64,000 nucleotides of DNA. Source: an uncultured Sphingomonadaceae bacterium. GTDB lineage: Bacteria; Pseudomonadota; Alphaproteobacteria; Sphingomonadales; Sphingomonadaceae. The notes under the pieces were generated by a model. The model made no database searches, had not been told where the DNA came from, and saw nothing but the letters and a program-made list of their open reading frames with translations. A program made the translations under genes and the position numbers. Positions within the stretch are counted from its first letter, which is position 1. Every line of letters begins with the position of its first letter. The stretch covers positions 1,240,001-1,304,000 of the forward strand of contig CANMVC010000001.1 in assembly GCA_947501325.1 (NCBI GenBank), written 5' to 3'. Positions 4,738 through 44,811 of the stretch are shown here, one piece after another.

Positions 4738-5271
4738 TTACATCTCTGCATCAATCTCTTCACCGGGCTTGGCGAATACAAATCGGGATGCCATGTCAAA
4801 ATCATGCCCCGCTCTCAGGAAGGCTTGCAATTGTTTGCGGCATACATCCTGATCAGCCGGCTCTTGGGCGAAGGGCCCAATGGACTTTTTCCGCGCATAT
4901 GTGCGCGCCGCTTCCCATTTCTTCTCGTCGCTGAGGTCGAGCGCCTGGCGGTCATCGCCCTCCGCAATACCGGCCTGATATAGCGCCTGGGTCACGCGCC
5001 GTTTGCCATAACCTTTGTTTATCAATGCCGCCGCGCGATTTTTGGCAAATAGCGCATCGTCAATATAACCGAGCTCGGCAAAGCGTTCGACCATCTTTTC
5101 CACATCTGCGGGCTGGTCTTCAGACCAGTCACGCTCGCGTAATTTACGGAAAAGATAGGATTTTAGCTTGTGCCGCGTCGTAGCGTAGCGGCTGACATAG
5201 CGTAAAGCGAGCTCTTGCAGGCTGTTTTCATCCAACGGTCTACCGCTATTTTTCAACGCTTCGCCTCTCAT
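4738..5271 (-). CDS. recX: Regulatory protein RecX
   Basis: RecX binds RecA filaments and limits their extension. The three-helix repeat pattern of the family is visible: ALRYVSRYATTRHKLKSYL near the N-terminus, RFAELGYIDDALFAKNRA in the middle, and GYGKRRVTQALYQAGI after it. The ATG at 5269-5271 is chosen; an in-frame GTG at 5296-5298 would add nine residues. recA is not in the window. The gene is divergent from the acyl-AMP ligase. Confidence 0.88.
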   Translation of the reverse strand: MRGEALKNSGRPLDENSLQELALRYVSRYATTRHKLKSYLFRKLRERDWSEDQPADVEKMVERFAELGYIDDALFAKNRAAALINKGYGKRRVTQALYQAGIAEGDDRQALDLSDEKKWEAARTYARKKSIGPFAQEPADQDVCRKQLQAFLRAGHDFDMASRFVFAKPGEEIDAEM

Positions 5272-5442: not shown

Positions 5443-7173
5443 ATGACTGAGCTTACACCAACCCCCACCGCAGATGTTCTTCCACGCCGTTTCGCTGACT
5501 TTGAAACAGTCGGTGAAGCGCTGGATTATGCAGCAAAGGGCCAAAGGGGATTTAATTTTTACGATGCGCGTGCCTCGCTGGCGCGAGTATATCCTTTTGC
5601 TGAGTTACAGGTCGATGCGATGGCGACAGCACGGCGCCTGATTGGTTTTGGCATTAAGCCCGGTGATCGCGTTGCGCTAATTGCCGATACCGAACCAAGA
5701 TTCTGCGCCTTGTTTTTCGGCGCCATATACGCTGGCGCATTGCCGGTTCCGTTACCATTGCCAACATCCTTTGGTGGCAAGGAAAGCTACATTGATCAGA
5801 TCGGTGTTCAGCTTGATAGCTGTGACCCGGCGATATTGCTGTATCCCGACGAGATAGAGGAACTCGCCGCCGCTGCTGGCCAGTCGCGCGAGATTCCGGT
5901 TTTCGGCTGGGACAAGTTTGCCGAAAGGGATGTTCCGGATTGTGACTTGCCGCAGGCCAAGAGCAGTGACCTTGCCTATCTGCAATATTCCAGCGGATCG
6001 ACACGCTTCCCCCATGGTGTGGCCGTGACCCACAAGGCATTGCTGCACAATGTCGGATCACATTCTCATGGCATGAATGTCAGCGAAGAAGATCGCTGCG
6101 TGTCCTGGTTGCCCTTTTATCATGATATGGGTTTGGTCGGATGTTTCATCTCGATGGTCTGCAATCAGGTCTCGACCGACTATCTGAAAACCTCTGATTT
6201 TGCCCGTCGGCCACTTTCATGGCTCGACCTGATCTCCCGCAACCCCGGCACATCCTGCAGCTTCTCGCCAACCTTCGGCTATGAGATATGCGCGCGCCGG
6301 ATCGGCAGCCAGTCCAATGTTGCTGAACGCTTTGACCTGTCGCGCTGGCGTCTTGCCGGTAATGGCGCCGACATGATCCGCCCCGATGTGATGCAGCGCT
6401 TTACCGATGCCTTTGCGCCGGCAAAATTCGACGCCAAGGCTTTTCTGCCGAGCTATGGTCTCGCCGAGGCCACTTTGGCTGTAACCATCATGCCGCCAGG
6501 CGAAGGCATGGAAGTGGAACTGGTCGAAGAAACCGAACTCGCCGGAGAAAAACAGGCAGATGGCAGTCGCCCCAAACGCTATCGGGCCATTGTTAATTGC
6601 GGTAAGCCGGTACGGGATACCTTGCTGGAAATTCGGGAAGAAGACGGCAGTATCCTGCCAGAAAAAACCGTCGGCAAAGTGTGGATGCAGAGCCCATCTG
6701 TCATGGAAGGCTATTATCGCGATCAGGAAGCAACCGATGCCTGTCTTGTTGATGGATGGCTCGACACCGGAGACATGGGATATCTGTCTGATGGCTATCT
6801 GTATATCGTTGGCCGCGCCAAGGATATGATCATCATTAACGGCAAAAACCACTGGCCCCAGGATATTGAATGGGCGGTGGAACAATTGCCCGGATTCAAG
6901 GCTGGCGACATTGCCGCTTTTGCGATTACCACTCCAGGCGGCGATGAAACACCTGCCGTTTTGGTGCAGTGCCGCACGTCCGATGAAATCGAGAGATTGC
7001 GCCTGCGCGACGAGATACGTGAAAAAGTCCGCGCAATTACCGGTATGAACTGTGTGATCGAACTGGTCCCACCGCGAACATTGCCACGCACCAGTTCGGG
7101 CAAGCTCAGCCGGGCCAAGGCGCGCAACCTTTATCTGTCCGGCGACATTCAGCCGTATGCCGTTGCTGCTTAA
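5443..7173 (+). CDS. Fatty acyl-AMP ligase (FAAL-type adenylating enzyme)
   Basis: A 577-residue member of the ANL superfamily, FAAL branch. It activates fatty acids with ATP to acyl-adenylates. Motifs in order: YLQYSSGSTRFP (ATP loop), WLPFYHDMGLVG (FAAL-typical), LPSYGLAEATLAV, DGWLDTGDMGYL, GRAKDMIIINGKNHWPQDIE, and the C-terminal SSGKLSRAK lysine motif. FAALs usually hand the acyl group to a carrier protein of a polyketide or lipopeptide line, but no carrier, PKS or NRPS gene lies nearby, so the acceptor is unknown. The ATG at 5443 (MTELTPTPT) is preferred over an upstream in-frame TTG at 5377. Confidence 0.88.
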   Translation: MTELTPTPTADVLPRRFADFETVGEALDYAAKGQRGFNFYDARASLARVYPFAELQVDAMATARRLIGFGIKPGDRVALIADTEPRFCALFFGAIYAGALPVPLPLPTSFGGKESYIDQIGVQLDSCDPAILLYPDEIEELAAAAGQSREIPVFGWDKFAERDVPDCDLPQAKSSDLAYLQYSSGSTRFPHGVAVTHKALLHNVGSHSHGMNVSEEDRCVSWLPFYHDMGLVGCFISMVCNQVSTDYLKTSDFARRPLSWLDLISRNPGTSCSFSPTFGYEICARRIGSQSNVAERFDLSRWRLAGNGADMIRPDVMQRFTDAFAPAKFDAKAFLPSYGLAEATLAVTIMPPGEGMEVELVEETELAGEKQADGSRPKRYRAIVNCGKPVRDTLLEIREEDGSILPEKTVGKVWMQSPSVMEGYYRDQEATDACLVDGWLDTGDMGYLSDGYLYIVGRAKDMIIINGKNHWPQDIEWAVEQLPGFKAGDIAAFAITTPGGDETPAVLVQCRTSDEIERLRLRDEIREKVRAITGMNCVIELVPPRTLPRTSSGKLSRAKARNLYLSGDIQPYAVAA

Positions 7174-34940: not shown

Positions 34941-35007
34941 AACCAGAATCAATCACATTTTGACAGTGCATCTGGGATCCGCGTTTCGGGGCATCGAGAT
35001 AATCCGG

Positions 35008-35262
35008 CTAATTGTAGACATAGGCGCCGTGATTATAGGCGAGCCAACCCAGACTGGAACCAGTCATGCCGTGCATCAAAATGGCCAAGGGCGCATCTTT
35101 CTCGGTTTTGATGTTCTGATAAATGAAGCCAGTAATCCGGTTCCCATCAGGTGCCTCCAGAGCAAGCTGTTGAACATTGGTTTGTGCAAATGCATTGGCG
35201 CCGCCCAAGAATGTTGCAGGAACTGCAAGGGCAACCATTATTGCTATCAGAATTTTTTTCAT
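35008..35262 (-). pseudogene. Truncated secreted alpha/beta hydrolase
   Basis: An 84-residue reading frame with a good signal peptide (MKKILIAIMVALAVPA...ANAFAQ) and the start of a hydrolase fold (DGNRITGFIYQN, ILMHGMTGSSLGWLAYN), then a stop. The HGM(T)GSS oxyanion region is present but the nucleophile and the rest are gone. The following DNA does not continue the fold. GGAGATTCCA precedes the ATG at 35260-35262. Direct repeats of the type found before the ABC operon lie upstream, so it may once have been part of that regulon. Confidence 0.65.
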
Positions 35263-35303
35263 TGGAATCTCCATAATGATTGGAGACGTGTTAACGCTGG
35301 CAA

Positions 35304-35321
35304 GGTCAAACCATTGTCAAA
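35304..35321. promoter_or_regulatory. Direct repeat TGTCAAA-type box, 11-bp period (copy 1)
   Basis: GGTCAAA at 35304-35310 and TGTCAAA at 35315-35321 are 11 bp apart, one helical turn. OmpR-family response regulators bind such tandem repeats. It lies upstream of the truncated hydrolase (start 35262) and matches the box at 37351. Confidence 0.5.
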
Positions 35322-35375
35322 CGAAACGCAATGAATTTGTCGAAAAGGGGGACCCGCTTGTTCAACGCGAAAATC

Positions 35376-36593
35376 CTACCAGGAAATAGTCGCGGTTGTT
35401 CCGCCTTCTTTTCCGGCTGCAACTACGATCTTCATACCAAAATGCGAAGACAGCCTTTTTACCAATGAAAGGCCTATCCCAAAGCCAGAATTGTCGTTCT
35501 GTGATTCATCGAACCCTATGCCAGTGTCTTTAACGCTTAAGCTTCTTTTGGATATCGAGAGCGAGACCGTCCCTTCGCTTGTATAGCTGATCGCATTGCG
35601 GATCAGGTTGCCGACTATAACCTGAGCGACAGCTTCGGGGACCGGCATGTAGATATCTCTATTCCCAAAAATACCGGTTTCGACTTTGTCACTGCGCAAC
35701 AGATGTTTGTTTGTTTCAATGGCATATTCGCCTGCGTTCCAGGCATTACAGCTTGTTCTGTCAGGTTCCCGGCCGAGCCATAATATTCCTTCAGTAAGAA
35801 GCCGCATGCTGCCGAGCGCTGATTCCAATCTAGCAAAGGCAGAGCTTTTATAACCATCTTTTTCAATGATCTCGGCAGCGCCAACCGCAACCGCGAGCGG
35901 CGTGCGCAGTTCGTGACTGACGTCGCGGTTAAACTGCCGCTCACGTTGCATCAGATCTTCGATATGTCGGTCTTTGTCGGCGATCGCGCGTGCTAGCACT
36001 TCTATTTCAACTGGTGCGCCGCCTAATCCCAAATCTACTGGTTCAAGCGTCTTTCTGGAAGTAACCGCGGCGGCCATTTTCTCGATTGGCATACTCAACT
36101 TCTTCGTCATACGTCGTACGAAAAAAATAGTTACAAACAACATCAGGCCGCCCAACAAGCCAATCAGCGCAACAAAACGCCATACCTGATCAGTTGATCG
36201 GACATAGGGGCGTGCATTGAATATCAAATATTGTTTTGCTTCACCGTCGCCTCTCACCGCCAGGTGATAATGTCCGTGCTCACCGCCAAAAACCTCATAT
36301 TCTCCGGTTTTCCAATCAGGTTTTATCTGACTGGCCAGCCACTTGGGCATCTCCTCGGTCCCTTGGAAGTATTCCATTTCCAGACCCGAAACCGTTTTCT
36401 TGGTTCCTCTTTCATGCTGTCCCGATAATGAAAGTTGATCCGCCTTCAAACTCACCTGGTTTCCAAAAATCTCATCTTCAAGGCTGAACTGAAACATCAC
36501 CGCCATAAACACCGTTATTAGAAAACATATGCCTATTGATGTGACAAAATTTCGAAGCACCAAGCCATTAACTTTTTGAGGGCTTCTATTCAT
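35376..36593 (-). CDS. Sensor histidine kinase
   Basis: A 405-residue two-pass membrane kinase: first membrane helix about residues 15-35, a short periplasmic sensor (36-135), second helix about 138-160, HAMP-like linker, HisKA with H227 in DVSHELRTPL, and an ATPase domain with NLIRNAISYT (N box), VKDTGIGF (G1) and GFGIGLSLVKRL (G2). It is partner of the response regulator upstream: the gene starts eight bases before the regulator's stop codon (overlap 36586-36593). The periplasmic part shows no known ligand domain. Confidence 0.9.
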   Translation of the reverse strand: MNRSPQKVNGLVLRNFVTSIGICFLITVFMAVMFQFSLEDEIFGNQVSLKADQLSLSGQHERGTKKTVSGLEMEYFQGTEEMPKWLASQIKPDWKTGEYEVFGGEHGHYHLAVRGDGEAKQYLIFNARPYVRSTDQVWRFVALIGLLGGLMLFVTIFFVRRMTKKLSMPIEKMAAAVTSRKTLEPVDLGLGGAPVEIEVLARAIADKDRHIEDLMQRERQFNRDVSHELRTPLAVAVGAAEIIEKDGYKSSAFARLESALGSMRLLTEGILWLGREPDRTSCNAWNAGEYAIETNKHLLRSDKVETGIFGNRDIYMPVPEAVAQVIVGNLIRNAISYTSEGTVSLSISKRSLSVKDTGIGFDESQNDNSGFGIGLSLVKRLSSHFGMKIVVAAGKEGGTTATISW

Positions 36594-37266
36594 CGGATGA
36601 TCTTTCTTTGAGGCAGTAACCGCGAGAACGTTCGGTTTCGATTACGCATTGCGTTCCCAATGATGATAATATTTTGCGTAAATTGTACACATGCGTTCTG
36701 AGAGCGCCGGAATTTGGCGGTTCGTCGCCCCAAATGCGATAGGAAATCGTCTCGCCGGAAATTGCATTGGGAGCGGCTTCCATCAGAAGCCTTAAAATGA
36801 GTCCCTCTTTATTATTGAGCGGCTTTGAACAGGATCCAAGGCTTACGACATTATCAGCAGGATCAAATGTTAAGTCACCGCAATTCAGCGATGAAGCATT
36901 TTTGATTTTCGGACGTTTGGCAAGAGCATCGATCCGTATTTTCAATTCTCGCAATGCGAAGGGCTTGGTCAGATAATCATCTGCACCAGCGGCAAATCCG
37001 TCTTCCTTGTCTTCCAATGTATCGCGGGCGGTCAGCATCAATATTGGTGCCTGTAGATTGGCCTCGCTCTTATAGGTTTTGCAGAGATTGATACCGTCAC
37101 GTCTTGGAAGCATCAGGTCGAGGAGAATCACATCATAGTCATTGGCGAGTGCCAGTTCTAGTCCGTGATCGCCGTTATAGGCGAAATCCAAAACATAGTT
37201 GGGTTCCAAAAAATCAGCGATATTGGCCTGAATATCCAGATTATCTTCAATTACCAAAACTCGCAT
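36586..37266 (-). CDS. OmpR-family response regulator
   Basis: A 226-residue regulator with a receiver domain (MRVLVIEDN; phosphoacceptor D50 in VILLDLMLP; K near 100 in DYLTKPFALREL) and a winged-helix DNA-binding domain (GLILRLLMEAAPNAISGETI...RTHVYNLRKIL...RSRGYCL). The ATG at 37264-37266 is used. It is divergent from the ABC operon, and 11-bp-spaced TGTCAAA repeats lie in between. Confidence 0.93.
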   Translation of the reverse strand: MRVLVIEDNLDIQANIADFLEPNYVLDFAYNGDHGLELALANDYDVILLDLMLPRRDGINLCKTYKSEANLQAPILMLTARDTLEDKEDGFAAGADDYLTKPFALRELKIRIDALAKRPKIKNASSLNCGDLTFDPADNVVSLGSCSKPLNNKEGLILRLLMEAAPNAISGETISYRIWGDEPPNSGALRTHVYNLRKILSSLGTQCVIETERSRGYCLKERSSDE

Positions 37267-37350
37267 CAGCGTGCCTATCTCCAAATCTCGTTGCGCAAAC
37301 TAACACAAGCCAACGCAATATTCGCCCAGCCTTTTGTTTGGCGAAATCAA

Positions 37351-37390
37351 TGTCAAAAAACTGTCAAACCCACTTCACATCGATTTGACA
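37351..37390. promoter_or_regulatory. Direct repeat TGTCAAA box, 11-bp period, in the TCS/ABC divergent promoter (copy 2)
   Basis: TGTCAAA at 37351-37357 and at 37362-37368, spaced 11 bp, with an inverted third copy TTTGACA at 37384-37390. The region lies between the divergent response regulator and ABC ATPase genes. The spacing is the same as at 35304. It is a candidate operator of the response regulator. Confidence 0.6.
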
Positions 37391-37445
37391 CAGGACAGCC
37401 TATCCAATTGTTCACGATAAAAATTCAAGGACTTCCGAGGGCTGC

Positions 37446-38105
37446 ATGGATCATCAAATTAAACTAAAAGACGTTGGCCATTATTTTGATACGCCGCATG
37501 GCCGTATCTCGCTGTTTGACAAACTGTCGCTTATATTTTCGGGCGGAAGCACGCACGCCATTGTTGGCCCGTCGGGCGTGGGCAAGTCCAGTCTGTTGTC
37601 TCTGGCTGCGGGTCTCGAGCTGCCTCGTTTGGGTGAAATAAAATTTACTTGCGATGGTGAACAAATGTCACCCGTTAAACTGCGCCAAAGATCAGGTTTC
37701 GTTTTCCAACAATTTCACCTCATGCAGGAATTGGATGCGCTCGGAAATATTGCACTGCCGCTGCGGTTGAACGGCAACAAACAAGCATATGATATCGCCA
37801 GAGAATGGCTGAAGAAGATCAATCTAGAAGATCGTGCCAATCACAAGCCGACACAGCTTAGTGGCGGTGAACAGCAGCGGGTGGCAATCGCCAGGGCTTT
37901 TGTCTCCAGCCCCGCCTTTATCTTCGCCGATGAGCCGACGGGAAATCTTGATGAAGCTACTTCGAGCAACGTTACCGATCTTATGTTTGAATTCGCGAAG
38001 GACACAGGATCGGCACTGATCATTGTGACGCACAGTACTGCACTTGCGGAACGCGCTGACAATATTTTCGCACTTTCCGAAGCGCATCTCGAGAAAATCA
38101 AATGA
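37446..38105 (+). CDS. ABC transporter ATP-binding protein (MacB/LolD/YbbA type)
   Basis: A 219-residue ABC ATPase with Walker A GPSGVGKSS, Q-loop FQQFHLMQEL, signature LSGGEQQRVAIARA and Walker B FIFADEPTGNLD. The DEPTGNLD form is typical of the LolD/MacB/YbbA class, which drives mechanotransmission or export rather than import. It overlaps the permease gene by four bases (ATGA). It is divergent from the two-component genes and likely under their control. Confidence 0.92.
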   Translation: MDHQIKLKDVGHYFDTPHGRISLFDKLSLIFSGGSTHAIVGPSGVGKSSLLSLAAGLELPRLGEIKFTCDGEQMSPVKLRQRSGFVFQQFHLMQELDALGNIALPLRLNGNKQAYDIAREWLKKINLEDRANHKPTQLSGGEQQRVAIARAFVSSPAFIFADEPTGNLDEATSSNVTDLMFEFAKDTGSALIIVTHSTALAERADNIFALSEAHLEKIK

Positions 38106-40582
38106 GCTGGATTACACTCGCATTCGATAATTTTCTGAACGACAGCAAGTCCAGTGATGGCCGTCTGGTGTTACTAACCCAGATCACATTGATATTGTTC
38201 CTCGCCACTCTGTCGCTAACCAGTGCTTCTGTGCAGCAGTATCTGGACGACAATCTCAATAACATGTTGGGTGCAGATATTTCCGTTTCCGGACCCCGCC
38301 CGTTATCAAGCAGCGATGAAAACCTGCTTTCAGGCAAGGCGGCAGACTTCGCCAAAATACAGTTGACCCCGCTGGCAATTTCTTTGCGCGGGGATACCAT
38401 TCCGGTGCAACTGAAAATTACCGATGACAATTACCCGCTGCAAGGCAGCCTCAAAATTGGGATGGCTCATGATCAGACAATCCAGAAGACAATCGAACAT
38501 GGACCACAACCCGGGGAAATATGGCTGGGTCCCAGAGCAAGCAGCAAGATTGATGCAAATATTGGTGACCGGATAGCACTTGGCGAGGAAACATTCCGTT
38601 TTGGCGCGATTATTTACCACGAGCCTGACCGGTTAATGGAAGATCATTCCGTTTCCATGCGAGCGTTGATCAACAGTAAATCTCTTTCCATTGACGATGT
38701 TAAGAGTAGCAAGACTCTGTATCGTTATTTGCTAACAGCAACCTCCGAACAGCAGGGAAGCATTGAAAGATGGGCTTCTGAAAAACTCAGTGACTTCAAC
38801 CTTCTAACCAAGGCCAGCGGCGGTCATCCGTTGGCATTATTCTGGCAACGAACGGAAAATTTCCTTGGCCTCGCGTCGGTAATGCTCTTTTTCCTTGCTG
38901 CGATCGCAATTGATATGGCCAATCGCCGTTATCTGGAACGACAAAAGCAACGTTTGGCTGTGTATCTCAGCTTTGGACAGACATTGGCAGCCTGCCTCCG
39001 ACTTTCTCTGCTGCAGTGGCTTTCGGGTTTTCTGCTCTCTTTCATGATCGCAATTGGCCTCGCTTATGTTGCGCAATATTTTCTGATCGGCCAACTCGCC
39101 GATCAATTTCCAGGCATCACATCGGGCTGGCATCCCGCTACAATTGCCAAGACTTCTGGTCTAATATTTTTACTGTTGCTCGCTTTTCAGATTCCCATGT
39201 TGTGGCAACTTAGTCGCACATCATTGGTTAGCCTGATCCGCGCTGTGGAATACCCGGCCGCACAGTTGCTGAGGTTATTCTGGGGTTTTGCAAGCATCTC
39301 GCTGCTCGCCGCATATTATTCAGACAACTTTATACTGACTGGATTAACTTTGGGCGCGCTGGGCGCTGCTCTCTTGCTAATGGCAATTTTGAGCTGGATT
39401 ATTCTAACGGCAGGTGAATTTTGGGGGCGGCGATATCCCGGATTATTGTCCTTCAATTTCTTCATCATGAAACAGCGGATACTGAGTAAATCATCGCAGA
39501 TACTTGGGCTGGGCCTGTGTAGCCTACTGCTGCTTTTTACGCTGATGCTGATGAAAGATATCGGCTCAACCATGGAGGGTTATACGCGCGCAAATAACGG
39601 CAATTTGATGGTCGCAGAACTGCAAGCGCAAGATAAGCCTGCGCTTGAGAATTGGGCGCAAGAGAATGAAAGTGAAATCCGGCAATTGCGGCCATATGCC
39701 GCCGCGAAATTATCTGAGATCAATGGCCTGCCCATTGATGAGGCGATTTCCACACCGAGCGAGACTTTAGCCACCGTCAAAAACTCGATCCGACTCAACT
39801 GGTCAAATACCATCCCGTCAAACAATCAACTGGTTGGAGGGGAGTGGTGGTCTGAAAAAGAATCGAACTGGAATCAGATATCTGCTGAAGATGAAGTGAT
39901 GACGGATTTAGGTCTGAACTATGGAGATCAGTTGACCTTTATGATCGATGGGAAAGCGACACAATTCAAATTGGTCGCCAGCCATGCCTTTAAACCCGGA
40001 GGCGGCTCGGTGACATTCTGGTTCCAGACACCCGAGCGGGCGATTGAAGCGATCAAGCCCGACGTCTTCTATATGGGAAGCTTAGAACTCCCGGATGCTG
40101 CATGGAGAGAACTTGGTTCGCTTTGGCAAAAGCATCCTTCTTTATCGCTGGTACCCTTGAAAGAACTCACCCAGCGCTTTGACGATACACTGGCAATGGT
40201 CACCAAACTGGTGGTTGGTTACGCAATCATGGTGTTAATAATGACCGCGCTGGTCATAGCAGCATCAATGAAAGGCTTTGAAGCCGAGGACCGGCAAAAA
40301 AACGGCCTGTTAATGAGCATGGGCGTGACCAAAAAATCATGTGTGAAACTGGCTTTTTATGATTGGCTAACCATTTCGTTGATCGCCGGTATCGGCGCGA
40401 TAGCCGGGACATGGCTCGCCGGTCTGCTGATCTATCAATCGCAATTCTCTATGACCTATGAGCCCGATCCCATCTGGCTTGTCAACACCATGCTTGCGAT
40501 CGGCGTTACCGTTTGCGGGATCGGTGTCATCTATAGTCGCAAAAGCCTCTCTACATCTATCAAAGACCTTTTGAGTGAGTGA
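38102..40582 (+). CDS. FtsX-like ABC permease (YbbP-type)
   Basis: An 826-residue permease with about ten hydrophobic segments: one near residue 25, two FtsX-type bundles (about 265-470 and 700-815), and two large extracytoplasmic parts. This duplicated FtsX layout is that of YbbP-like and lipoprotein-type exporters. It sits at the end of the ATPase gene (four-base overlap) and overlaps or abuts the CPBP gene. In E. coli YbbAP works with a lipase-like partner; the substrate here is unknown. Confidence 0.85.
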   Translation: MSWITLAFDNFLNDSKSSDGRLVLLTQITLILFLATLSLTSASVQQYLDDNLNNMLGADISVSGPRPLSSSDENLLSGKAADFAKIQLTPLAISLRGDTIPVQLKITDDNYPLQGSLKIGMAHDQTIQKTIEHGPQPGEIWLGPRASSKIDANIGDRIALGEETFRFGAIIYHEPDRLMEDHSVSMRALINSKSLSIDDVKSSKTLYRYLLTATSEQQGSIERWASEKLSDFNLLTKASGGHPLALFWQRTENFLGLASVMLFFLAAIAIDMANRRYLERQKQRLAVYLSFGQTLAACLRLSLLQWLSGFLLSFMIAIGLAYVAQYFLIGQLADQFPGITSGWHPATIAKTSGLIFLLLLAFQIPMLWQLSRTSLVSLIRAVEYPAAQLLRLFWGFASISLLAAYYSDNFILTGLTLGALGAALLLMAILSWIILTAGEFWGRRYPGLLSFNFFIMKQRILSKSSQILGLGLCSLLLLFTLMLMKDIGSTMEGYTRANNGNLMVAELQAQDKPALENWAQENESEIRQLRPYAAAKLSEINGLPIDEAISTPSETLATVKNSIRLNWSNTIPSNNQLVGGEWWSEKESNWNQISAEDEVMTDLGLNYGDQLTFMIDGKATQFKLVASHAFKPGGGSVTFWFQTPERAIEAIKPDVFYMGSLELPDAAWRELGSLWQKHPSLSLVPLKELTQRFDDTLAMVTKLVVGYAIMVLIMTALVIAASMKGFEAEDRQKNGLLMSMGVTKKSCVKLAFYDWLTISLIAGIGAIAGTWLAGLLIYQSQFSMTYEPDPIWLVNTMLAIGVTVCGIGVIYSRKSLSTSIKDLLSE

Positions 40583-40584
40583 CC

Positions 40585-41286
40585 ATGATAGCAAAAACAT
40601 CTTACGAAAGCTTGCGCGCGTTTAATTTCGGCGCGCTTGCTGACTTGTTGATTGTGATGGCCATGCTTGTCATCGTGAAGCAATCTGTGCTGCCCCATAG
40701 TTTCCTGTATGCCGGCCCGGCTTCGACTTTTAGCGCGATGGTGGTTGGAACGATTTTGCTCCGCCGCAGGGGCATTGGTTGGAACGATCTAGGGCTGCGT
40801 TGGCCAGAAAACTGGTTAAAAACAGCAGGCCTAACACTGCTCACCATGTTCCTGTTCATAGTAGCCGTAAAAAGCATGGAGCTGGTGGCGGAATATTTCT
40901 TTGAGAATGTCGGTGCCAGCGGGCGATTTGATCATGTCGAAGGCAATTTACCAGCCTATATTGGAATAATGTTTCTTACTTGGACCCATGCTTCCTTCTT
41001 TGAGGAACTGTTATTCCGGGCCTTTGTTATCAGTCGAGCCAGTCATTTTCTGGGGGGAGGACTCAAGGCCGACCTAATCGCGGTAGTATTCTCATCGATA
41101 TTTTTCGGATATCGCCATTACTATTATCAAGGAATGTACGGCGCGCTGATCACGGGTGCTGCCGGATTTGCTTTTGGTATGCTCTATTTATGGTTTGGCC
41201 GCAAAAACATATTACCGCTGATCTTTGCCCACGGTATTTTCAATAGCATTTCCCAGACATCCAGATTTTTCGGATGGGAGGATTAG
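40585..41286 (+). CDS. CPBP-family intramembrane metalloprotease
   Basis: A 233-residue multi-pass protein with the three CPBP (Abi/CAAX) motifs: FFEELLFRAF (EExxxR), FGYRHYYYQG (the H of motif 2) and FAHGIFN (HxxxN/D). These enzymes cut membrane-embedded peptides, and many act in bacteriocin maturation or self-immunity. ATG at 40585 is used; a GTG at 40579 would overlap the permease stop by four bases. Two small membrane-type peptide genes lie just beyond on the other strand. Confidence 0.88.
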   Translation: MIAKTSYESLRAFNFGALADLLIVMAMLVIVKQSVLPHSFLYAGPASTFSAMVVGTILLRRRGIGWNDLGLRWPENWLKTAGLTLLTMFLFIVAVKSMELVAEYFFENVGASGRFDHVEGNLPAYIGIMFLTWTHASFFEELLFRAFVISRASHFLGGGLKADLIAVVFSSIFFGYRHYYYQGMYGALITGAAGFAFGMLYLWFGRKNILPLIFAHGIFNSISQTSRFFGWED

Positions 41287-41343
41287 ACCTCTCAACAACG
41301 ACGAGTATCGAGAGCTCAGACAATGTTTGCGATTGAGAACAGC

Positions 41344-41385
41344 AATGTCCGCTTTTGCGCCCAAAGCGGACACTAGCGTTGTGGC
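41344..41385 (-). repeat. Palindromic repeat, copy D
   Basis: On the minus strand GCCACAACGCTAGTGTCCGC followed by TTTGGGCGCAAAAGCGGACATT is close to the full consensus. It lies between the convergent CPBP gene and peptide gene B. Confidence 0.88.
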
Positions 41386-41459
41386 TGCTTTATCCCGAAC
41401 CCTCATGCAATTGAAGCAAGTTAGCGCTTCAAGACCTGAAATATTGTTCTATTCAGCAA

Positions 41460-41579
41460 TTAAACAAGAGTCGAAGCAGCGTTACTAACTGCAGGACCAA
41501 CAGAGGCGGTCACAAAAATAGCTGCTGAAAATATTGCGGCAAATGCGGCGGTGATATTATTCGAAGAAATGGAAAACAT
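41460..41579 (-). CDS. 39-residue small hydrophobic peptide (paralogue B)
   Basis: ATG with TAAGGAGTCTCCCCC upstream, then 39 codons. The peptide has a polar start (MFSISSNN), a hydrophobic alanine-rich core (AAFAAIFSAAIF), the block ASVGPA and an NAAS tail. It is a paralogue of the gene 29 bases upstream: AAFAA-FSAA, ASVGPA and NAAS are shared. No known family is recognised. It may be a secreted or membrane-inserted peptide. Confidence 0.7.
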   Translation of the reverse strand: MFSISSNNITAAFAAIFSAAIFVTASVGPAVSNAASTLV

Positions 41580-41608
41580 GGGGGAGACTCCTTAAATTTG
41601 GATTGAGA

Positions 41609-41731
41609 TTATGCGATGAAAGAGGCGGCATTTTGAGCAGCTGGGCCAACGCTGGCGACAACAACAACAGCAGCGGAGAAAAGAGCGGCAAAAGCGGCGA
41701 CAACTTGGTTCTGGATATTTACGTTCGACAT
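41609..41731 (-). CDS. 40-residue small hydrophobic peptide (paralogue A)
   Basis: ATG with AAAGGAAATCAAA upstream, then 40 codons: polar start MSNVNIQNQ, hydrophobic core AAFAALFSAAVVVVA, block SVGPA and tail NAAS. Its paralogue follows after 29 bases on the same strand. Two tandem paralogues, each with its own good ribosome site, argue for real coding. They sit next to an ABC exporter, a CPBP protease and a two-component system. The role is unknown. Confidence 0.7.
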   Translation of the reverse strand: MSNVNIQNQVVAAFAALFSAAVVVVASVGPAAQNAASFIA

Positions 41732-41967
41732 TTTGATTTCCTTTGGATTTAATATGGTGCTTCGCAGTTCCTGTTAGCGAAGATGCCTGAAGCACTGCAT
41801 GGGGCATGCCAGTTTTGGATAATCTATATTTTTCAATGATATAAGACAACTGACCGGCTCAGGGGATTTTGCGTGAAATCGAATAGTGGGAAAAAATCCC
41901 AACTATTGGTGTTTGCGATCATCCTTCATTCGATGACCAGCCGGATTAATCTTACACCGTCAAAGTG

Positions 41968-42000
41968 GATGTCCGCTTTTGCGCCGTTAGTGGACGTTAA
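41968..42000 (-). repeat. Palindromic repeat, copy E
   Basis: On the minus strand TTAACGTCCACTAACGGCGC then AAAAGCGGACATCC. The orientation is opposite to copy F, so E and F flank the recombinase gene as inverted copies. Confidence 0.75.
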
Positions 42001-42374
42001 ATAGCCAGTCCAAAAAACCACTTGTTAGCGTTCTGCAGTCTTTGACCTTCTCGATGAGGAGACCAAAATGCGAAATCAAACTTATGACATTCAAAAGCTA
42101 TATCCATGGAACAAGGGAAAGTTGATCGGACAAAAGACACCGCTGAAACAACAAGAGGTGTGGGCCATCAGAGTTCGATTGGAACTGGCAGACCGGAAAC
42201 GCGACTTGGCTCTGTTCAATTTAGCGATTGATAGCAAGCTTCGAGGATGTGATCTTGTCGGTTTGAAAGTTAGCGATGTTCGCACTGGTGATGAGTTCCA
42301 AAGCCGAGCCAAGATCATTCAACGCAAAACAGGTATGAACCGCCCCGGTATTGCCGGAGGCTATTTGGTTTAAG

Positions 42375-43280
42375 TTAAGCTGCCATGTGGGTTTCGTCCA
42401 GCATGGCGTAATAGTTTTTCTCGGCTTCAGCAGGCGGGATGTTTCCTATGGGCTCAAGCAGCCTTTTGTTATTGAACCAGTTCACCCATTCGAGCGTGGC
42501 ATATTCTACCGTTTCGAACGACCGCCAGGGTCCACGCCGATGGATCACTTCGGCCTTGTAAAGGCCATTGATCGTCTCGGCTAAAGCGTTGTCATAACTG
42601 TCACCCACGCTTCCAACCGATGGTTCAATGCCTGCTTCAGCCAAGCGTTCGGTATATTTTATAGACACATATTGACTGCCGCGGTCGCTATGATGGATCA
42701 GACCGCCGCGATGTGTAGGACTGCGATCATGAAGCGCCTGTTCCAGAGCATCGAGAACAAAGCTGGCGTGGGCAGTTCTGCTCACCCGCCAGCCAACAAT
42801 ATAACGAGCGTAAACATCAATCACGAACGCGACATAAACGAAGCCAGCCCAGGTTGCGACATAGGTGAAGTCAGACACCCACAGCCTATTGGGTGCAGGC
42901 GCATGGAACTGACGGTTCACATGATCAAGCGGGCAAACCGCTGTTTTGTCGCTGATCGTAGTGCGCACTGGTTTGCCGCGTATCACCCCTTGGAGGCCCA
43001 TATCGCGCATCAGTCGTTCGATGGTGCAACGGGCAACGTCGAAGCCTTCGCGCTTCATTTGCCGCCAGACTTTGCGCACGCCATATACCCTGAAGTTCTC
43101 GGTAAAGACGCGCGCAACCTCCGGCTTCAGCAGTATATCGCGCTGCGCGCGGGCTGACAGTCGTGATGGGTCACGCTGCTTGGCGACATGATCATGATAG
43201 GTCGATGGGGCGATCGGCAGCAACTTGCAGATCGGCTCGACCCCATGATTACCGCGATACTTATCGATGAACGCGATCAT
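42375..43280 (-). CDS. IS3-family transposase, orfB (DDE catalytic part)
   Basis: A 301-residue integrase-core protein. The DDE residues can be placed: D in WVSDFTYV, D in [10 protein letters not shown] and E in [12 protein letters not shown]. The N-terminal HTH-like block ([21 protein letters not shown]-type, seen as [14 protein letters not shown]) is present. It overlaps orfA by four bases (ATGA); I see no A6G slippery site, so it may be expressed by coupling and not by frameshifting. Confidence 0.93.
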
Positions 43281-43603
43281 TTGCGAAACGGGCGGTCGAG
43301 CTCCGCCTGCGCAAAATATGCCGATGCCTTACGTAAAATCTCGTTGGCCTGACGCAGTTCCCGGTTCTCACGCTCCAGTGCCTTCAACTTGTCAGCAACA
43401 TCACTGGGAACTCCGGCACGCGAGCCGCGATCGACTTCTGCACGCTTCACCCACTCATGCAGCGTCGGTGGCGAACAGCCGATCTTCTCTGATATCGAAA
43501 CTACTGCCGCCCAGCGCGATGGATAATCCCTCTGGTGATCCAACACCATACGGATCGCACGTTCGCGAACCTCCGGTGCAAATTTGTTCGTTGTTTTGTT
43601 CAT
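43277..43603 (-). CDS. IS3-family transposase, orfA (HTH part)
   Basis: A 108-residue protein with an HTH ([46 protein letters not shown]) and a leucine-zipper-like tail ([32 protein letters not shown]). The tail is the hallmark of IS3 OrfA and serves dimerisation and contact with OrfB. The element is the one inserted in the integrase. Confidence 0.92.
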
Positions 43604-44014
43604 AATGGCTCCTTCTACTCAAGAGTTGGAGCCTCCGGCAATACCGGGGCGGTTCAGTAACGTTGTTCAATTTGAGATTACCAAACAAACACGAAACGCG
43701 CTTAAGCTTTGGTGTGCTCACTCCAATTTATCACCATATGATTGGTTGTTTCCGTCTCGCATGAATAGATCAAACCATCTTTCAACGCGGCAATATTCGA
43801 GAATTGTGGCGAACTGGTTTGCATCAATAAATCTTCCCAGATCAGCTTACGCCACTCATTCCTTAAGACGAACAAAGGCAACATTGATATATCGGAAAAC
43901 TGGAAACTTGAGAGCGGTGCAGTTGCTTCTCGGCCACTCAAAGATCGATAGTACCGTTAAATATCTCGGCGTTGAGGTTGAAGATGCGCTAGCTCTTGCC
44001 GAAAGTGTCGAACT

Positions 44015-44050
44015 CTAGTGTCCGCTATGGGCGCAAAAGCGGACATTAGG
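44015..44050 (+). repeat. Palindromic repeat, copy F
   Basis: CTAGTGTCCGCTATGGGCGC then AAAAGCGGACATTAGG, the clearest copy. The TAG (44016-44018) is the stop codon of the integrase. Confidence 0.9.
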
Positions 44051-44088
44051 TTTGCCTGAGGAACGGGGTCAGGTTAACATAGCCAAGT

Positions 44089-44811
44089 ATGAGACTGACC
44101 AACTTGTCACTATTCGCCTTAGCGCCATTAATGCTTTGTTCGTGCTCATCTCTGAGCAAGCAGGACCTAGAAGGCGAGTTTGCTAACGATCAAACCAAAG
44201 CTTTTTTAGAATGCGCAGTTGATGGAAATTTGGATTGTTTAGACGAATCTTCAGTTGGCGCGTCCGAACTAAACGTATTCGGAACAAATGGCGGCACACC
44301 GCTAGAATGGTATCTGAGAACGAAGAAAAATAGCAACCTAGAAGTGGTAAAACGCTTTTTGGCGAAAGGAGCTGACGCTCACTTGCAAAATTTGGAGGCG
44401 TTCAATTCACCTTATATTTTCGCCATTGAAGACAAAAACCTAGCTTTATTAGAGTTGTTCACAAGTATGGGTTTCAATCCAGATCACAGATACAAATCGG
44501 GTATTTGGACCTATCCTATCCATATGGCAGTGACTTCAAGAAACCTAGATGTTGTGAATTTTCTGTTGGACAATGGTGCCGATATTGAAAGCAAAAACCA
44601 TGCAGGTTTAACACCGCTACTGCATTCAAACAGCAATCAGTACGATATTGCGTTAGAGTTGCTGAAACGTGGTGCTTCGATTGATGTGGTTGATAAAAAT
44701 GGCAACGACATTTGTTATATATTCAAAACGCCAATCGACGATAAAAGTGAGCATTTTCAGTTCCGGAAAAAATTCTCCGAACAATTACTAGATCGAGGAT
44801 TGCGATGCTAG
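44089..44811 (+). CDS. Ankyrin-repeat lipoprotein
   Basis: A 240-residue protein with a lipobox LCSC near residue 19. Ankyrin-like repeats follow, each with the pattern of a helix pair and a GADI/GAS turn (for example LEVVKRFLAKGADAHLQN, LDVVNFLLDNGADIESKNHAGLTPLLHS, IALELLKRGASIDVVDKNG). A periplasmic binding role is likely; partner unknown. The stop codon TAG (44809-44811) lies inside the CTAGTGTCCGC edge of repeat copy G. It is AT-rich compared with the housekeeping genes. Confidence 0.85.
   Translation: MRLTNLSLFALAPLMLCSCSSLSKQDLEGEFANDQTKAFLECAVDGNLDCLDESSVGASELNVFGTNGGTPLEWYLRTKKNSNLEVVKRFLAKGADAHLQNLEAFNSPYIFAIEDKNLALLELFTSMGFNPDHRYKSGIWTYPIHMAVTSRNLDVVNFLLDNGADIESKNHAGLTPLLHSNSNQYDIALELLKRGASIDVVDKNGNDICYIFKTPIDDKSEHFQFRKKFSEQLLDRGLRC

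Follow-up and report, generated by a model that had tools for sequence, protein, structure and literature searches.

In the phage-shock protein (Psp) response, PspA releases PspF when the membrane is damaged, and the Psp genes are induced. The PspF regulon of Escherichia coli includes two small inner-membrane proteins, PspD and PspG, whose function is unclear according to the accessible part of PMC9239133. In the PEP-CTERM/PrsR regulon, as far as the accessible part of PMC1569441 describes it, a σ54 box lies about 70 nucleotides (nt) before the gene of an envelope product and an activator motif is found further upstream. Here we analyse a stretch of 64,000 nt from an uncultured Sphingomonadaceae bacterium (contig CANMVC010000001.1), referred to as the window, and specifically two tandem genes in it, P1 and P2, for hydrophobic peptides of about 40 residues. 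We conclude that these are probably PspF/σ54-induced single-helix inner-membrane micropeptides that represent a lineage-specific expansion of the phage-shock regulon. Membership in the PspF/σ54 regulon is strongly supported by sequence comparison, and we infer the induction, membrane location, topology and effector role of the peptides.

P1 (41609–41731, minus strand) encodes the 40-residue peptide MSNVNIQNQVVAAFAALFSAAVVVVASVGPAAQNAASFIA, which has one predicted helix and no K, R, D or E, and its sequence is under purifying selection. Its paralogue P2 (41460–41579, minus strand) lies in tandem downstream and encodes the 39-residue peptide MFSISSNNITAAFAAIFSAAIFVTASVGPAVSNAASTLV, 56% identical to P1. 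Both have good, purine-rich ribosome sites, AAAGGAAA and AAGGAG. The relatives of these peptides in congeners keep a length of 35–40 amino acids and differ mostly at silent sites, with a pooled proportion of synonymous differences (pS) of 0.458 and of nonsynonymous differences (pN) of 0.082 over 16 pairs that are mostly orthologous and not all independent. This pattern argues that the peptide genes are genuine coding genes and not chance frames. An initial annotation of the locus had described two paralogous short genes with strong ribosome sites and had named a lack of coding conservation as one finding that would speak against its proposal; our results confirm both genes and show that their coding sequence is conserved. 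In scans with family models, P1 and P2 have no match in Pfam or NCBIfam at E 0.1, nor in PADLOC at 0.001. In the alignment of 42 window-type peptides, from which a match containing a stop (L051) was omitted, the length is 35–40 residues throughout and the final residue is A, I, V or L in 42/42. A structure model of the peptide consists of one helix (residues 3–39) with a mean predicted local distance difference test score (pLDDT) of 75 and a predicted template modelling score (pTM) of 0.36, and the composition together with this one-helix model suggests single-pass inner-membrane peptides. Short, Ala-rich, hydrophobic, GP-containing and multicopy products of a stress-type promoter could also be toxins that act on membranes, in the manner of type I toxins or peptaibols, and halt growth when the envelope fails, for example during phage infection; however, a housekeeping role agrees better with purifying selection and with copies that congeners retain at the same places, and we consider a toxin very improbable.

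The promoter region carries evidence for regulon membership. A σ54 −24/−12 box, TGGCATGCCCCATGCA (41796–41811, minus strand), starts 80 nt before P1 and is conserved in congeners. On the same strand, a hairpin of the form CTTCGC-loop-GCGAAG (41760–41782) lies in the 5′ leader near the expected transcript start, and a dyad resembling the PspF enhancer, or upstream activating sequence (UAS), at 41886–41913 starts 102 nt before the σ54 box and scores 6.2 bits. Seven sites in the 3.58-Mb genome match the pattern TGGCAYGN5TGCA exactly, compared to two for the reversed control pattern. Each of the three peptide clusters has one of the seven, as does pspA; of the remaining three, one precedes a flagellar rod gene (PF00460), one falls within a FliK-type gene (PF02120) and one is at a site without a good open reading frame (ORF). 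The UAS was scored with a matrix of 28 columns learned by expectation maximization; its training set comprised 27 pspA promoters from the family and no peptide promoter, and in these training promoters the enhancer sites start 80–114 nt before the σ54 box, 19/27 of them at 90–92. The PspF of the window's own genome is 55% identical to that of E. coli, and in the pspF-pspA region of E. coli K-12 the matrix picks TTAGCGAATTACACTAAC, which we take to be the mapped PspF site, with a score of 14.4, above all 500 Markov-generated sequences.

Among the 21 regions upstream of first peptides, in which L051 was retained, a σ54 box is present in 16, window P1 included. For all 16 clusters with a box the best either-strand match to the matrix within 200 nt is one and the same dyad (scores −1.5 to 15.5), at −102 on the reverse strand in 14 and at −91 on the forward strand in 2; if the forward strand alone is considered, the match is at −91 in 14/16, the exceptions being the window (−111) and L060 (−56). 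In a second set, 32/32 clusters have a σ54 box and 32/32 have their match on the same dyad within 1 nt (scores −4.4 to 19.3), the set being made of 24 new congener loci taken as the best match per genome, such that clusters without a σ54 box are under-sampled, plus L206, L207 and six loci of other genera already present in the earlier analysis. L206 is almost identical to the window and L207 is a repeat of L159; L180 was dropped because its upstream sequence was too short. At the three σ54 matches of the genome outside the peptide clusters and pspA, used as control boxes, the best either-strand UAS scores are −16.8, −22.0 and −21.8. For the putative enhancer, it is the combination of score, spacing and conservation that counts. 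The leader hairpin is evident across 16 peptide leaders (mean z −2.2, with a combined p of 1e-9 that is too strong given that the 16 leaders are related sequences) and not clear in the 27 pspA leaders (mean z −0.5).

Two further sites came to light in these scans. A dyad resembling the PspF enhancer, scoring 15.8, is found at positions 597–635 of the window upstream of a LysR-type gene (682–1605, an identification by eye), has no visible σ54 box and is probably a chance occurrence. Elsewhere in the genome (L082, ~6733–6900; G000:C2:1249732), a σ54 box that has neither a good ORF nearby nor a PspF-type enhancer is followed by two apparent hairpins and a T-run, judged by eye, and makes a candidate σ54-dependent small RNA.

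The psp operon itself provides a further line of evidence. At the pspA locus of the window's genome, PspF scores 488 bits (cut-off 444), PspA, PspB and PspC also exceed their cut-offs, and a 60-residue ORF containing FSLTILISAVGPAEAQG lies between the σ54 box and pspA. A PspF over the cut-off occurs in 110/119 genomes of the family, and 70 of these 110 loci were read; 66/70 combine a σ54 box with a positive enhancer score, which was the selection criterion (27 of them trained the matrix), and at the other four no such combination was found. The first gene behind these 66 promoters encodes a peptide of 39–94 residues in 54 cases and a longer protein in nine, and is pspA in three (L100, L224 and L247, the last read as pspA with an early start). 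The short products end in Ala in 42/54. Five of the nine longer products were scanned and TonB_C (PF03544) was found in all five, four times over the cut-off; the TonB_C proteins of L083, L086, L106, L110 and L111 have a signal-like N-terminus, and the longer first-gene proteins are apparently secreted. Six of the nine share the N-terminal segment of the short peptides (2e-11 to 4.5e-8 with a short-peptide profile), the three without it being L083, L086 and L246, and because of this common segment the short products look like signal sequences free of a payload. At L081 (~5137–5205) an inverted repeat, TGGCCGGGACC...GGTCCCGGCCA, between leader peptide and pspA is perhaps an attenuator or a processing site.

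A profile of 11 pspA-operon peptides, built without the window family, finds in the window's genome its own row and 5/7 window-family peptides (E 2e-4 to 7e-3), with nothing further below 0.3, and an hhalign comparison of the window-family and pspA-peptide profiles yields a probability of 91.6% (E 8e-7). The best reading of these similarities is that the window peptides are dispersed paralogues of the small peptide encoded first in the pspA operon. The pspA-operon relatives resemble signal sequences in that 54/54 of the short ones have K or R in the first 25 residues and 42/54 have AxA between residues 25 and 46, and in some genera they extend into longer proteins. Together with the prevalence of A, I, V or L as final residue in the window type and of Ala in the pspA-operon type, this could point to cleavage by signal peptidase, at the GPA motif or beyond it, and to a signalling role of the freed apolar C-terminus outside the cell or in the periplasm, where a PDZ protease, for instance, might bind it. 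The window-type peptides, however, have K or R in the first 25 residues in just 15/42 and AxA in 9/42, and we regard such a cleaved signal as unlikely. The placement of the peptide between promoter and pspA in the psp operon, and the conserved C-terminal residues adjoining the stop codon, would also suit a leader that works like the arrest peptide SecM, sensing membrane insertion to control translation of the downstream gene. The co-directional downstream gene that arrest peptides call for is present in the pspA operon but not at the window, where the gene beyond P2 runs in the opposite direction (convergent) and the P1 and P2 peptides would therefore be end products; likewise, no co-directional gene comes next at L041, L043, L047 or L055 in maps of ORFs of 90 residues and more, and the clusters mostly comprise 2–3 tandem copies (range 1–4). 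A leader of this kind is in our judgement quite improbable.

Several observations weigh against the view of P1, P2 and their relatives as PspF-controlled membrane peptides descended from the psp leader. The absence of K, R, D and E from 23/42 window-type peptides is odd for an oriented membrane protein. The profile link comes from an alignment of 31 residues, all in a hydrophobic helix, and in the reverse search the window-family profile finds 10/64 psp first-gene proteins below 0.001, with the psp leader of the window's own genome at just 0.077 and many others at chance level, including a second subfamily starting with M[YF]DRRFF. As regards the enhancer, the score of 6.2 for the dyad before P1 is modest (the 64 kb contain 6 sites with a positive score, this one included), and the control box of flgB type, at −16.8, also has its best match at −102 reverse. 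Finally, no σ54 box was found at L045, L050, L054 and L059, where the peptide genes are divergent from a LysR gene, or at L051, which implies that the peptide family is not solely under PspF control, so that its LysR-divergent part would have another regulator. The LysR-divergent genes of L045 and L054 adjoin purH-like genes (named by eye).

Under the favoured reading of a PspF/σ54 micropeptide regulon, damage to the inner membrane would lead PspA to release PspF, which would bind the upstream dyad and activate σ54-RNA polymerase at the −24/−12 box. A short mRNA with a hairpin at its start would be made and, from its strong ribosome sites, translated into hydrophobic peptides of ~40 residues, which would most likely enter the inner membrane as single helices and have a short, apolar C-terminal tail. 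There they would act as small Psp effectors or modulators beside PspA, PspB and PspC, and by analogy we favour a role like that of PspD and PspG in E. coli. A more specific scenario, which we offer tentatively and with considerable doubt, is that the σ54 promoter, hairpin and hydrophobic segment of the first psp gene were duplicated and spread without the secreted domain, giving rise to sets of ~40-residue membrane peptides, and that their C-terminal tail, conserved and apolar, contacts either the Psp complex or a protease of PDZ/Prc type, whether to signal damage or as an effector that plugs the membrane.

The peptides form a multicopy family at dispersed loci. A two-row profile of P1 and P2 finds seven copies at three places in the window's genome, namely the window pair, three tandem copies at C1:744.8–745.2 kb and two at C1:821.2–821.5 kb. 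Matches at E ≤ 0.001 occur in 32/32 genomes of the genus, some of them incomplete, with 2–11 matches each. In the family sample, the same profile has matches at E ≤ 1 in 111/249 genomes, most probably by chance, and strong matches in the own genome and 4/4 sampled congeners. The class sample yields 4/289 genomes at E ≤ 0.01 and only the own genome below 0.001. A scan of named genomes confirmed at least 17 peptide loci, and the taxa among the matches listed are Sphingomonadaceae, Sphingomonadales, Sphingorhabdus or Sphingopyxis. The family sample adds three other genera in which related peptides have the same promoter: g2 (G095, G157, G207 and G246), g69 (G068, G137 and G192) and g84 (G083).

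The initial annotation had combined the peptides with a neighbouring two-component system (TCS), ATP-binding cassette (ABC) transporter and CPBP protease into one possible system, and had proposed that homologues of the short genes be sought with a profile built from both, their occurrence without this neighbourhood in most genomes being evidence against it. The pattern that it had named as refuting is the one observed: the peptides are present in 32/32 genomes of the genus and a close orthologue of the permease in 10/32 (64–100% identity, own genome included). In the family sample the permease occurs in 16/249 genomes at E ≤ 1e-30, five of which reach ~50% identity or more. The nine other loci of the ABC module in the genus (14–17 kb each) have no peptide, the best match of the peptide profile being E 0.12, compared to 1e-18 for the cassette locus L206 in the same run. 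Conversely, of 21 peptide loci compared, the 20 outside the window carry no counterpart of its ABC, CPBP and TCS genes. The co-occurrence of peptide and exporter genes expected for a bacteriocin or other peptide with a dedicated ABC exporter and CPBP protease is not seen at these loci beyond the window.

P1 and P2 are in fact part of a mobile cassette (41344–44049), bounded by inverted REP-like (repetitive extragenic palindrome) repeats, which also contains a tyrosine-recombinase gene (PF00589). In the window, an insertion sequence (IS; ORFs 42375–43603) interrupts the recombinase gene, leaving it in two pieces (42068–42373 and 43584–44018), and an Rfam scan of 35000–44500 at gathering thresholds found only an ALIL pseudoknot, inside the IS. 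Cassette parts 41344–42320 and 43856–44049 are 97.5–98.5% identical to a locus of the congener G275, in which the region of the ABC module is 82% identical to the window and the peptide cassette lies on another contig; we infer that the adjacency of peptides and module in the window is recent. Adjacency in one genome, and the sub-threshold likeness of the ATPase to the ATPases that export bacteriocins and darobactin, are what speaks for the peptides as substrates, pheromones or bacteriocins of the neighbouring TCS, exporter and protease. Against this stand the counts in the genus, the nine peptide-free module loci, the separate placement of the cassette in the congener and the peptide pair's own promoter of σ54/PspF type, and on that promoter evidence the peptides would be tied to PspF and σ54 and not to the neighbouring TCS. 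We consider the exporter explanation extremely improbable, and a joint peptide-ABC-CPBP system was rejected on the co-occurrence counts, the peptide-free module loci and the separately placed cassette.

The neighbouring genes, placed from the ORF list and Pfam, form two blocks outside the peptide system. A histidine kinase gene (35376–36593) and a response regulator gene with a Trans_reg_C domain (36586–37284) make up the block 35376–37284 on the minus strand; the block 37446–41286 on the plus strand consists of genes for an ABC ATPase (37446–38105), an FtsX permease of 826 residues (38102–40582) and a CPBP protease (40579–41286; PF02517, E 7.8e-14). The layout, with the TCS divergent from the ABC/FtsX/CPBP operon and the two peptide ORFs convergent to it, is as the initial annotation had described, and its call of a CPBP protease stands. 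The kinase/regulator pair is present too, but not within the range assigned to it, as it starts at 35376. The TCS-ABC genes are a conserved module in congeners, which in some of them includes the CPBP gene. A short ORF at 35008–35274 is similar to the start of an alpha/beta hydrolase, which has 268 residues next to the same TCS-ABC module in L133 and L134, and is probably a hydrolase remnant.

A literature search, with most subscription papers outside its scope, found no description of such peptides, and the accessible parts of two Psp surveys (PMC9239133 and PMC11237479) contain no mention that we could find of peptides encoded by the first psp gene; the micropeptide family seems to be undescribed so far. 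As judged from sequence, one lineage would possess a multi-locus PspF regulon of micropeptides, and its psp operon usually begins with a gene for a micropeptide, perhaps small enough to escape routine annotation. Should our reading be true, it provides concrete small targets for studying how Psp serves the membrane, as well as a testable Psp regulon outside enterobacteria.

Among known systems, the neighbouring operon is of the same kind as the YbbA/YbbP-LolD-MacB type ABC modules with a CPBP protease, from which it differs in that its ATPase and permease score below the cut-offs of the NCBIfam equivalog models shown and that the module is unlinked to the peptides; the earlier designation 'YbbAP-like' applies loosely, as the NCBIfam match of the permease to YbbP (NF041854) has 153.5 bits against a cut-off of 999. 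The peptide loci resemble the PEP-CTERM/PrsR regulon, in so far as the accessible account describes it, in the arrangement of a σ54 box and an upstream activator motif, and differ from it in that the peptides match no PEP-CTERM family and the upstream dyad fits the PspF matrix; PrsR/PEP-CTERM control was set aside on this fit, because the PspF matrix explains the dyad. With the pspF-pspABC operon they share the type of activator, the σ54 box and the enhancer spacing, and the operon of this family is itself distinguished by what precedes pspA in 63/66 promoters, namely a small peptide or else a longer protein, in most cases starting like a signal sequence. The window peptides are about half the length of PspD and PspG, and P1 and P2 match neither of these families at E 0.1 in Pfam or NCBIfam. 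The likeness lies in being small products of PspF/σ54 promoters, as the accessible part of PMC9239133 describes PspD and PspG; unlike these, the window-type peptides are multicopy, in tandem and at dispersed loci.

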